From Polyangiaceae bacterium (GTDB taxonomy: Bacteria; Myxococcota_A; Polyangia; Polyangiales; Polyangiaceae), in NCBI GenBank assembly GCA_019637295.1, contig JAHBVX010000001.1, positions 99,501 to 163,500 on the forward strand: a DNA stretch of 64,000 nt, given 5' to 3'. The notes beneath the pieces were generated by a model that was not told the DNA's origin, did not search any database, and worked only from the letters and a program-made list of their open reading frames with translations. Shown piece by piece: positions 22,496 through 64,000 of the stretch; the first letter of the stretch is position 1; each line of letters opens with the position of its first letter. Both the position numbers and the translations under genes were made by a program.

Positions 22496-22927
22496 ATGAC
22501 GTTGGTGCCTTGTGTGGAGTGTCGTCGGCATGTACGAGCGGACGAGCGGTGCCCCTTCTGTGGGGGCGCGCCGCAGTCAGCACGAACCGTCTCGGTCGAG
22601 TTCCGGGGTCTGTCGCGCGGTGAGCGCGTCGCGGTGAGCCTTGCGCTGGCGGCGTCCCTGGGCGTGACGGCCTGCAGCAGCTCGGACAGTGATCAGTCCG
22701 CCGCCTACGGCTCTCCCCCAATGGGAGGCACGGGTGGGACTGGCGCGACCGGCGGCGCGAGCACGGGCGGTACCGGCGGCGCGAACACCGGTGGCGCGTC
22801 TGGCGCGTCCGGCGCGTCCGGCGCGTCCGGCGCGTCTGGCGCGTCTGGCGCGTCTGGCGCCTCCGGCGCGTCCGGTGCATCCGGCGCGTCCGGCGCCGGC
22901 GGCGTCGGCGACGCCGGCAGCGACTAG
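22496..22927 (+). CDS. Orphan zinc-ribbon/Gly-Ala-Ser-rich protein with YGSPP motif
   Basis: The product has 143 residues and belongs to the same family as the four tandem genes at 61.7-63.5 kb. It has an N-terminal ribbon (CVECRRHV, then CPFCGG), a hydrophobic segment (SLALAASLGVTAC) with a lipobox-like cysteine, and the motif AAYGSPP soon after that cysteine. It then has GTGG/GASGAS low complexity, with about eleven nine-base units at 22793-22891. GAGGAGG precedes the ATG. Unlike the others, its YG motif is next to the cysteine rather than at the C-terminus, and no radical SAM gene is adjacent. The function is unknown. It may be a substrate of the distant maturase or a divergent relic. Confidence 0.8.
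   Translation: MTLVPCVECRRHVRADERCPFCGGAPQSARTVSVEFRGLSRGERVAVSLALAASLGVTACSSSDSDQSAAYGSPPMGGTGGTGATGGASTGGTGGANTGGASGASGASGASGASGASGASGASGASGASGASGAGGVGDAGSD
22793..22891 (+). repeat. Nine-base tandem repeat encoding (Gly-Ala-Ser)n
   Basis: Eleven units of GGCGCGTC[C/T] are seen, with variants only in units 8 and 10. They lie inside the orphan zinc-ribbon gene. The unit is a multiple of three, so copy-number change alters length but not frame. Confidence 0.9.
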
Positions 22928-61164: not shown

Positions 61165-61641
61165 TCACACGTCGAGGAACTTGCTCGGGTCGGCCTTGAA
61201 GCGCGCCGCGCAACCGGGGCAGCACACGGGGTAAGTCTTGCCGTCGTGCGAGACCCACGGAGTGTTCGCGTCCACCTGGAACACGCCGCCGCTCACCGGA
61301 CACTTCGTGAGATCGCCGACCTTCGCGTTGGTCGCAGGGACGATGGGGCCGAGCGCCTGCTGCGCCTTGGCGGCGGAGCCGCACCCGCAGCTGCCGGTGC
61401 CTTCGCCGGCGCACGCGCCGCCGCAGTCGCCGACCTTCTGACCGCAGCCCCCTGCCTTCGCCGCGCTGCCACAACCACAGCCTGCTGCTTGCGGCTGAGC
61501 GACCGCCACCGGAGTGGCGGCTGCCGGGGCGACGGGTGACGCCGCCGCGGGACGCGCGGGCTCGGGACTGACCTCCTCGGGGGCGGGACAGCCGGCGAGG
61601 AGCGCGAGAGCGAGCGGGACGGATAGGCGCAGGGCAGTCAT
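61165..61641 (-). CDS. Cys-rich lipoprotein with YHS/TRASH-like metal-binding domain
   Basis: The product has 158 residues from the ATG at 61641. The lipobox is LLAGC. A Cys/Gly-rich middle (two CGCGSAAK units, with CGGAC between) precedes a YHS-like C-terminal domain (CPVSGGVFQV...YPVCCPGCAARFKADPSKFLD) that in related proteins binds transition metals. It lies 45 bases downstream of the last gene of the radical SAM cluster and in the same orientation, so it may be part of that operon. A metal-donor or copper/iron-handling role is conceivable but unproven. Confidence 0.8.
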   Translation of the reverse strand: MTALRLSVPLALALLAGCPAPEEVSPEPARPAAASPVAPAAATPVAVAQPQAAGCGCGSAAKAGGCGQKVGDCGGACAGEGTGSCGCGSAAKAQQALGPIVPATNAKVGDLTKCPVSGGVFQVDANTPWVSHDGKTYPVCCPGCAARFKADPSKFLDV

Positions 61642-61686
61642 GACGCGGTAACCTAGCGCCAAACCCTGCCCGGCGCATCCGGGGAC

Positions 61687-62184
61687 TCAACTCGGCGGTA
61701 GACCGTAGGCCGGAGCCGCCCCGGCGCTGCCGCCGCTGCTCGCGCCGGCTGAACCGGCGCTGCCCGCGGCACCCGCGCTGCCCGCGGCACCCGCGCTGCC
61801 CGCGGAACCGGCGCTGCCGCCGAGCCCCGAGTCGATGGGCAAGCCATACGCCGGCGCGATCCCGCCGTCGTCGCCCGCGAATCCGCCGCTGCCTCCGGTG
61901 GCGCTGCCGCCCGAGCCGCCGCTGCCGCCGCTACCTCCGCTACCTGAGGACGCACCCGTCCCGCCGGCGCCGCCGTTGCCCGAGCCGCCGTCATCCGAGC
62001 CGCAGCCCGTCGCCGCGAGGCTCGCGGCGAGGGTGGCCCCGAAGGCGACCAGGGCCGCGCGGCTCATGCGCCGCCCGGGAGCAGGGACCTGCGGTGCAGT
62101 GCTCAACGCACCACCACAAAAGGGACACGCGTCGTCCGCGCTCCAAACATGCCGACTGCACTGTGCACAAGGAATCAAGCTCAT
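61687..62184 (-). CDS. Tandem array member 1: zinc-ribbon/Gly-rich protein with YGLP motifs
   Basis: The product has 165 residues from the ATG at 62184 (GGAG seven bases upstream). The ribbon is CAQCSRHV...CPFCGG (about residues 6-28). A hydrophobic segment ends with a lipobox-like LAATGC near residue 60. Gly/Ser/Ala low complexity with GSAG repeats follows, and two motifs PAYGLP appear, one internal (before IDSG) and one at the very C-terminus (AYGLPPS). It is the last of four homologous genes following the radical SAM gene. The function is unknown; it is a candidate substrate. Confidence 0.82.
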   Translation of the reverse strand: MSLIPCAQCSRHVWSADDACPFCGGALSTAPQVPAPGRRMSRAALVAFGATLAASLAATGCGSDDGGSGNGGAGGTGASSGSGGSGGSGGSGGSATGGSGGFAGDDGGIAPAYGLPIDSGLGGSAGSAGSAGAAGSAGAAGSAGSAGASSGGSAGAAPAYGLPPS

Positions 62185-62212
62185 CATCCATCTCCGTTCT
62201 TCTGTCAGATCT

Positions 62213-62575
62213 TCAGCCGCCGTCCGGCGGGATACCGTAGGGCGGCGCGATGCTGCCGCCTGAGCCACCCTCGCCGGCACTGCCCGCCGAGCCCCCGGAG
62301 CCCGCGTCGGTTCCGCCGCTTCCCTGTCCGCCGGAAGACGAGCCGCCGGACGCGCCCGCGCCGCCGGTCCCGCCGCCGTCGTCATCCGAGCCGCACGCGG
62401 TGGTGGCTACGCTGGCCGCCAAGGTCGCGCCAAACGCGACGAGCGCCGCGCGGCTCAAGCGCCGGGCTGGCTGGGCGGGCGCGGCAGCCGACGTGAGGGC
62501 GCCGCCGCAGAACGGGCACGCCGGGTCTTCGCCACGCACATGGCGATTGCACTCCGAACAAGGCTTCAAGGTCAT
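62213..62575 (-). CDS. Tandem array member 2: zinc-ribbon/Gly-rich protein with YGIPP motif
   Basis: The product has 120 residues, the shortest of the family. Order: CSECNRHV...CPFCGG ribbon, RLSRAALVAFGATLAASVATTAC segment (the cysteine ends a lipobox-like sequence), GSDDDGG acidic run, Gly/Ser-rich linker, and PPYGIPPDGG at the C-terminus. The ATG at 62575 is 16 bases after the stop of member 3. Reading frame and composition match its neighbours closely, indicating recent duplication. Confidence 0.82.
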   Translation of the reverse strand: MTLKPCSECNRHVRGEDPACPFCGGALTSAAAPAQPARRLSRAALVAFGATLAASVATTACGSDDDGGGTGGAGASGGSSSGGQGSGGTDAGSGGSAGSAGEGGSGGSIAPPYGIPPDGG

Positions 62576-62591
62576 GCGGCCTCCTTCTCCC

Positions 62592-63034
62592 TCACGGGGG
62601 CAGACCATACGGCGGGGCGAACCCACCCCCGCCCGACGCGCCCGCGCTGCCGCGCTCCCGCCCGCGCCCGCGCTCCGCTCGCGCCCGCAGCTCCCGCTCG
62701 CGCCCGCGCTCCCGCTCGCGCCCGCGCTCCGCCCGCGCCCGCGCTCGCGCGCCACCGCTCCGCCGCCGCTTCCGCCCGCGCCGCCGCTTCCGCCCGCGCC
62801 GCCGCTTCCGCCCGCGCCGCCGCCCCCGTCACTGCTCGAGCCGCCGCAACCCGCCGCAACGCTGGCAGCGAAGGTAGCGCCGAACGCCAAGATCGCGGCG
62901 CGACTCAGGCGCCGCGTGGCGCTCGGGATCTGCGGCGTCGTCGACGGTAAGCCGCCGCAGAACGGACAGCGGGCCTCGCTCGCGCGCACGTGGCGCGAGC
63001 ACTCGGCGCACGGAACGAGCGTGAACTCACTCAT
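62592..63034 (-). pseudogene. Tandem array member 3: same family, frame lost inside GC repeats
   Basis: The start at 63034 (ATGA overlap with member 4) encodes a normal ribbon (CAECSRHV...CPFCGG), the RAAILAFGATFAASVAAGC segment and Gly-rich repeats. After about 62780 the sequence falls out of frame and reads as Arg/Ala-rich residues, while the expected C-terminus FAPPYGLPP with stop at 62592-62594 is in another frame. The repeat region shows several single-base losses and gains. Without frameshift the frame would run into member 2. It is either a decayed copy or a region of sequencing error. Confidence 0.7.
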
Positions 63035-63471
63035 GGCTGCGGTGGTCCGCCGTACAGCGAGGCGGCACCCGCGCTGCCCGAGTCCTCATCGCCGCCGTCC
63101 ACGGGCGGTCCGCCGTAGAGCGGCCCCGCCGCCCCGATCCCGCCGTTGCCCGCTTCCCCTGCCGCGCCCGCGTTGCCGCCGCTCGACGCGCCGCCGCTCG
63201 ACGCGCCGCCGCTCGACGCGCCGCCGCTCGACGCGCCGCCGCTCGACGCGCCGCCCGTGCCGCCTCCGCCGTCGTCGTCCGAGCCACACGCCGTGGTCGC
63301 CAGGCTGGCGGCCAGGGTCGCGCCGAACGCGACCAACGCGGCACGACCGAGCCGGCGGCCGGGTAGCGGTACTACCGGCGCCGTGGACAGCGCTCCGCCA
63401 CAAAACGGACAGGCGGGCTCGTGGCTGCGAACGTGACGACTGCACTCACCACACGGGACGAGACTCGGCAT
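63031..63471 (-). CDS. Tandem array member 4: zinc-ribbon/Gly-rich protein with YGGPP motifs
   Basis: The product has 146 residues. It starts 3 bases after the radical SAM stop and ends in an ATGA overlap with member 3. Order: CGECSRHV...CPFCGG, RAALVAFGATLAASLATTAC, GSDDDGG, five copies of GGASS (15-base DNA repeats at 63181-63255), then PLYGGPPVDGG and a terminal SLYGGPPQP. Position directly behind the maturase makes it the prime candidate substrate. Lipobox-like cysteine suggests export and lipidation after the ribbon leader. Confidence 0.85.
   Translation of the reverse strand: MPSLVPCGECSRHVRSHEPACPFCGGALSTAPVVPLPGRRLGRAALVAFGATLAASLATTACGSDDDGGGGTGGASSGGASSGGASSGGASSGGASSGGNAGAAGEAGNGGIGAAGPLYGGPPVDGGDEDSGSAGAASLYGGPPQP
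63181..63255 (-). repeat. Five perfect 15-base tandem units
   Basis: GCTCGACGCGCCGCC (plus-strand reading) is repeated five times without change. It encodes GGASS repeats in array member 4. The perfect identity points to recent slippage or gene conversion. Confidence 0.95.
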
Positions 63472-63474
63472 GAC

Positions 63475-64000
63475 TCACTGCTCCTGTTTCGCGTTGGGAT
63501 CGTCCTCGAGCACGAGCTCGAAGTTTCCATGGTCGAAGGGCTCCCCGGGCGCGGCCAGCTTCTGCACGATGCGCTCGCGCTTGCCCTCCCGCTGCATCTC
63601 GAGGGCGCGGTGATGGCAATACGGGTTGTTGCCCGCCTTGCCGAACAGCGTGAAGCCCGTCCAGGTGCACCCGGCGCGGCACACATCGGCGTAGTAGCAG
63701 GTCCGGCAGTACCCCCAGAGATCATCCACGGTGCGGTCCCGCGTGTAGCGCAGCGGCGTCGAGCGCTCCCAGATGTCCTTCAGCCTCGCGTCCCGGATGT
63801 TGCCCCCCGTCCAGGCGTTCGTCGGCAGCGACGGGCAGCCCTTGATGGAGCCATCGGCCTCGATGCCGAGCGTCGAGCGGCCCGCGCCGCAGCTGGCCAT
63901 GTGGCCTCGCGGCATCTTGCCGCGCAGCGCGGTCTCGTAGGGGCCGAAGTAGCCGATGTTGTTGCCCGGCCAGATGCGCACCTTCAGCTCGTCCGCGCGC
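63475..64000 (-). CDS. Radical SAM/SPASM maturase (C-terminal part only)
   Basis: About 174 C-terminal residues are visible; the N-terminus with the CxxxCxxC radical SAM motif lies beyond the window. The SPASM domain is complete: CX12GX4C (CGAGRSTLGIEADG then SIKGC), CX2CX5CX3C (CRTCYYADVCRAGC) and a final C (PYCHHR). These ligate two auxiliary 4Fe-4S clusters in peptide-modifying enzymes. The C-terminal tail is charged and ends EDDPNAKQEQ. The stop is 3 bases from the start of array member 4, so enzyme and presumed substrates are in one operon. The radical chemistry cannot be predicted. Confidence 0.88.
   Translation of the reverse strand, partial: RADELKVRIWPGNNIGYFGPYETALRGKMPRGHMASCGAGRSTLGIEADGSIKGCPSLPTNAWTGGNIRDARLKDIWERSTPLRYTRDRTVDDLWGYCRTCYYADVCRAGCTWTGFTLFGKAGNNPYCHHRALEMQREGKRERIVQKLAAPGEPFDHGNFELVLEDDPNAKQEQ

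Follow-up and report, generated by a model that had tools for sequence, protein, structure and literature searches.

At one edge of the stretch of DNA analysed here (64,000 nt, hereafter the window; G000:C1:99501-163500 in its own genome), a radical SAM/SPASM gene is followed by a run of small homologous genes. The organism, a soil-type bacterium of the order Polyangiales, thus carries both an enzyme and a family of candidate substrates, and the locus raises the question of whether the enzyme modifies these proteins and, if so, by which chemistry.

The enzyme and the genes behind it

The following features of the window bear on this question:

63475-64000, minus strand: C-terminal 174 codons of a splicease-like radical SAM/SPASM enzyme (PF04055, PF13186, TIGR04103)
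63031-63471, minus strand: candidate substrate 1, 146 aa; zinc ribbon, hydrophobic segment, Cys, Gly/Ser-rich tail with two LYGGPP
62592-63034, minus strand: candidate substrate 2; intact head, frameshifted Gly-rich repeat, tail in another frame ending GGGFAPPYGLPP-stop
62213-62575, minus strand: candidate substrate 3, 120 aa; same design as substrate 1, tail with APPYGIPP
61687-62187, minus strand: candidate substrate 4, 166 aa; same design as substrate 1, tail with APAYGLPI and APAYGLPP
22496-22927, plus strand: dispersed paralogue with no enzyme of this kind beside it; zinc ribbon, lipobox VTAC, Gly/Ser/Ala repeat tail

The enzyme gene is cut by the window edge and complete in the genome (G000:C1:162975-164276, 433 aa). 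Reading the full gene bore out the preliminary description of a SPASM enzyme, with a Radical_SAM domain (PF04055, 1.6e-23) and a SPASM domain (PF13186, 9.1e-8). That description had named a full-length maturase lacking CxxxCxxC as a finding that would speak against it; the motif is present in the full-length protein as WEITLACDLACRHCG. Among NCBIfam models, TIGR04103 ranked first with 524.6 bits over residues 53-424, below its equivalog cut-off of 725 bits, so that the enzyme is formally no member. TIGR03913 came second (468 bits, below its cut-off of 591.75) and TIGR04133 third (171 bits, below 425). The closest solved chain is SkfB (6efn), and the AlphaFold model of an orthologue 77% identical to the enzyme has a RiPP-maturase fold matching SkfB, PqqE and SuiB. 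An N-terminal extension of ~50 residues, absent from the cyanobacterial TIGR04103 enzymes, is modelled at low quality in this orthologue except for short helices.

Substrate 1 begins 3 bp behind the stop codon of the enzyme gene, and substrates 1 and 2 overlap by ATGA. The heads of the array are 61-78% identical to copy 1, and the proteins share one order of parts, namely a zinc ribbon (PCxxCxRHV...CPFCGG), a hydrophobic segment ending in Cys, and a Gly/Ser/Ala tail containing YGxPP or YGxPI. The tail sites of the array in the window are PLYGGPP, PPYGLPP, PPYGIPP and AYGLPI. Searches of the substrates against Pfam and NCBIfam gave no covering family and no match to a Nif11- or NHLP-type leader. 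The preliminary description of four homologous genes of this design directly behind the enzyme was thus confirmed for coordinates and heads. It holds less well for copy 2, which is not intact as assembled: its ATG-to-YGLPP-stop span of 443 nt is not divisible by 3, and its open frame extends into copy 3. The frame change sits inside the Gly-rich repeat and leaves the head and the YGLPP tail in different frames, either through an assembly error in a high-GC repeat or through a genuine frameshift.

Behind the array lies a Cys/Gly-rich lipoprotein gene (61165-61662, minus strand) with a weak C-terminal match to YHS/TRASH (PF04945, 2.4e-4, below the cut-off). We rejected this YHS-type lipoprotein as a part of the system since the other loci fetched have no counterpart of it close to the enzyme. 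The system originally delimited at 61165-64000 therefore keeps the enzyme and the four substrates and loses 61165-61662 as an unrelated gene.

A zinc-ribbon family that accompanies the enzyme

The consistent pairing of the array family with the radical SAM gene, which the preliminary description had proposed to look for, was found in two samples. Among 59 relatives, the array head occurred in 31 genomes, all 31 of which encode the enzyme, and in none of the 19 enzyme-less genomes (Fisher p=5e-9, uncorrected for the relatedness of the genomes). In a phylum sample of 112 genomes, the seven with the head, two of which fall outside the order, all have the enzyme, and each has a head gene no more than ~2 kb away from it. 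The only recurrent genes near the enzyme are the enzyme itself and the zinc-ribbon genes; kinases and RND pumps, present in few loci, were rejected as a third component and taken as chance. In the 40 fetched loci, zinc-ribbon YGxP proteins adjoin most enzyme copies, with wholly different linkers (Gly-rich, DAG-rich or Pro/Glu-rich). The enzyme and the substrate family are a real, conserved and functionally linked pair.

This pairing extends well beyond tandem arrays. The genome of the window contains ten array heads for one such enzyme, and up to 19 heads are recognisable per Polyangiales genome. Of 150 heads listed, 56 have an enzyme gene within 5 kb, against ~0.4 expected, and 94 do not. Conversely, 37 of 71 enzyme matches have a head within 5 kb, a fraction lowered in part by contig ends and by the divergence of heads. 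The notion of a substrate array thus applies to the four tandem copies, while most substrates are scattered in the genome. Whether homologs of the array occur mostly without a SPASM gene, as the preliminary description had asked, depends on the scale: the picture is mixed by locus, given the 94 heads that are not adjacent, and the answer is no by genome, all array-positive genomes having the enzyme.

The tails are marked by their tyrosines. In the pooled Polyangiales tails, 198 of 220 Tyr (~90%) are in YG, and YGxP occurs 169 times versus ~4.4 in residue shuffles. The 46 proteins from enzyme loci (100/110 Tyr in YG; 77 YGxP; shuffles mean 2.3, max 8) and the 50 proteins away from the enzyme (98/110; 92 YGxP; shuffles mean 2.0, max 7) are alike in this, and 47 of the latter 50 contain YGxP. 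The tails are of low complexity and typically have one to five Xaa-Tyr-Gly-x-Pro sites, and the residue before Tyr includes A, P, E, D and V. A loose lipobox pattern was found in 72 of 96 family members and a Cys after the hydrophobic segment in 23 more; TTAC, the lipobox of two of the four window copies, falls outside this pattern. In the paralogue at 22496-22927, AYGSPP directly follows the lipobox VTAC.

Predicted splicing of surface lipoproteins

The family ranked first for the enzyme, TIGR04103, corresponds to an InterPro entry that we take to be IPR026482. PlpX, assigned to IPR026482, excises tyramine from Xaa-Tyr-Gly together with PlpY (PMC11002830; PMC10533398). Such a reaction removes the larger part of a tyrosine and seals the protein chain again. 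The splicease tags are RP(G/L)YGLPI and AVAAGYGVVFPG, and the native PlpXY sites are MYG and LYG (PMC10533398). We found that the Nif11 precursors beside cyanobacterial TIGR04103 enzymes carry ALYGLPPELF, AIYGLPPKLF, RPMYGLPPDRF, PMYGIPP, AYGIPP, LYGVV and MYGVV, which match the PlpXY tags RPGYGLPI and AVAAGYGVVFPG. These cyanobacterial enzymes score 802-867 bits, above the TIGR04103 cut-off, and are 53-58% identical to the window enzyme; the PlpX locus of Pleurocapsa PCC 7319 was not found among the cyanobacterial genomes searched, so that this identity refers to other TIGR04103 members. The radical SAM and SPASM cysteines (C65, C69, C72, C296, C314, C357, C360, C366, C370 and C387) are invariant in the alignment with the cyanobacterial enzymes, which in a quick tree are nested among the zinc-ribbon-associated ones.

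Since the enzyme is closely related to PlpX-type spliceases, the likely chemistry is already known, and judging from sequence it is probably that of the splicease. We consider it likely, with some room for doubt, that the protein is a splicease-type radical SAM/SPASM enzyme acting on a genome-wide family of zinc-ribbon lipoproteins with YGxP tails. Co-occurrence, proximity, the conservation of the motif and its identity with splicease sites lend good support to the earlier idea of a SPASM maturase that modifies neighbouring proteins at YGxP.

How such an enzyme would find its scattered targets is suggested by the GDL-type enzymes (TIGR03913). In Acidobacteriota, Azospirillum, Aureibacter and one myxobacterium, these bear a C-terminal zinc ribbon with the pattern of the substrate heads, and the ribbon is part of the enzyme itself in loci L152, L163, L166, L176 and L185. 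Profile comparison of the substrate heads with this sister-enzyme ribbon gave a probability of 97.3 over 33 columns, a short profile, and single-sequence zinc-ribbon matches to TIGR03913 were no better than those to generic zinc ribbons. A search of the Polyangiales loci with a profile of three PlpY-like proteins revealed no such partner there. Because the loci have neither a PlpY gene nor a third recurrent gene, the simplest reading is that the zinc ribbon would serve as the recognition module, carried by the substrate in Polyangiales and by the enzyme in the GDL type.

We therefore propose the following sequence of events for the lipoproteins. In the cytoplasm, the zinc ribbon would act as a leader and bring the substrate to the enzyme, and the tail may then be spliced at its Xaa-Tyr-Gly-x-Pro sites, a reaction for which the literature evidence is limited to PlpXY-type enzymes. 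After export, signal peptidase II would cut before the lipidated Cys and remove the zinc ribbon, and the lipid-anchored, flexible tail would display reactive ketoamides outside the cytoplasmic membrane. The displayed tails would most likely be tethered protease inhibitors or reactive groups; we favour tethered inhibition because protease inhibition has been reported for spliceotides, and a single precursor can be spliced several times (PMC11117315; PMC10373908). To the whole scheme we give slightly less than even weight: a dispersed, trans-acting splicing of surface lipoproteins, in which a portable zinc-ribbon leader (on the substrate in Polyangiales, on the enzyme in GDL systems) would replace PlpY and the Nif11 leader and be cut off by signal peptidase II, so that tails held by their lipid anchor would expose multiple reactive ketoamides of beta-amino acids at the cell surface.

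Three other explanations were weighed. The enzyme could have diverged from PlpX and modify the YGxP tails by other SPASM chemistry, such as a cross-link, an epimerisation or another change of Tyr, Gly or Pro. The modest identity to the cyanobacterial enzymes, the score below the equivalog cut-off, the absence of PlpY and the extra N-terminal segment all speak for this, but YGxPP is identical in the TIGR04103 precursors and the cyanobacterial enzymes branch inside the zinc-ribbon-associated diversity, and we think such a divergence unlikely. It is a good deal less probable still that YGxP stays unmodified and serves the lipoproteins as a structural or sorting motif, with another target for the enzyme. 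Most family members do lie away from the enzyme, as this reading would have it; yet neither sample contained a genome with the family and without the enzyme, and carriers unrelated to this family also have YGxP next to related enzymes (Nif11 precursors, Parabacteroides and Treponema lipoproteins, short Acidobacterial and Azospirillum peptides). The counts of co-occurrence and proximity refute a mere coincidence, in which an unrelated SPASM gene happens to lie beside ordinary Gly-rich lipoproteins. Such tails are common in this genome, and many DNA matches are of low complexity (for instance the gene upstream of the enzyme), but the zinc-ribbon head and YGxP are conserved despite otherwise unrelated linkers.

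If splicing of these lipoproteins is true, backbone-edited proteins with beta-amino acids would be a standing class of surface lipoproteins across a bacterial order, not rare natural products, and whole sets of surface lipoproteins would probably be rebuilt with unusual, reactive amino acids by one enzyme with many native targets. It would also provide a PlpY-free splicease for protein labelling, a testable leader role for the zinc ribbon and, with tethered protease inhibitors, a concrete hypothesis for the cellular use of ribosomal beta-amino acids.

Comparison with known systems

Three known systems resemble the locus. Bacteroidota and Treponema have radical SAM/SPASM enzymes of TIGR04133 that adjoin a lipoprotein (TIGR04134) whose YGxP lies at the lipobox Cys or close to it, as in CEYGSPH and CYGMPEN of the Parabacteroides and Treponema proteins. 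They differ in that the enzyme is ~28% identical and the lipoproteins are longer, non-repetitive and without a zinc ribbon. A TIGR04134 search of the window's own genome gave no match, with the controls likewise silent, and a literature search for TIGR04133 found nothing. Other lipoproteins, beside more distant enzymes of ~40% identity (L095:7690-8595 and L096:4647-5888), alternate Asp-rich, calcium-binding-like repeats (DNDGDGKIDCADEDC) with YGIPVE.

The GDL system shares with the window multiple paralogous substrate genes, several peptides with PYG near the N-terminus, and the resemblance of its enzyme's C-terminal zinc ribbon to that of the window substrates. It differs in carrying the ribbon on the enzyme and in its short DUF1843-type peptides, to which the window substrates do not belong, without a lipoprotein signal and, in some copies, without YG. 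Short peptides of Acidobacteriota containing PYG(x)AI..AI..GD adjoin enzymes with the C-terminal zinc ribbon in L163, L152, L166 and L176.

Variants of the zinc-ribbon proteins were also seen. In a sister Polyangiales clade (L080, L084, L136) they end in PPYGCVFPDxAC, not YGxPP, which is near the second splicease tag, AVAAGYGVVFPG. A planctomycete protein directly behind its enzyme (L175:4812-5585) has a zinc ribbon, three YGxP/YGxPx sites and a C-terminal hydrophobic segment, and is possibly tail-anchored. One protein of L100 (~5238) has a zinc ribbon and IYG followed by an OmpA-type-looking domain.

With PlpX/PlpY the locus has in common a radical SAM/SPASM enzyme and precursors with several Xaa-Tyr-Gly sites, often YGLPP. 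The carrier is a zinc-ribbon lipoprotein here and a Nif11/NHLP leader peptide there; the Polyangiales loci have no PlpY gene and their substrates are dispersed over the genome; the window enzyme is extended at its N-terminus and falls short of the TIGR04103 cut-off; and native PlpXY sites have M or L before Tyr, whereas the Polyangiales sites are wider. A prior description in a published splicease survey is possible. The arrangement had at first appeared unrecognised; the enzyme proves close to known PlpX-type spliceases.
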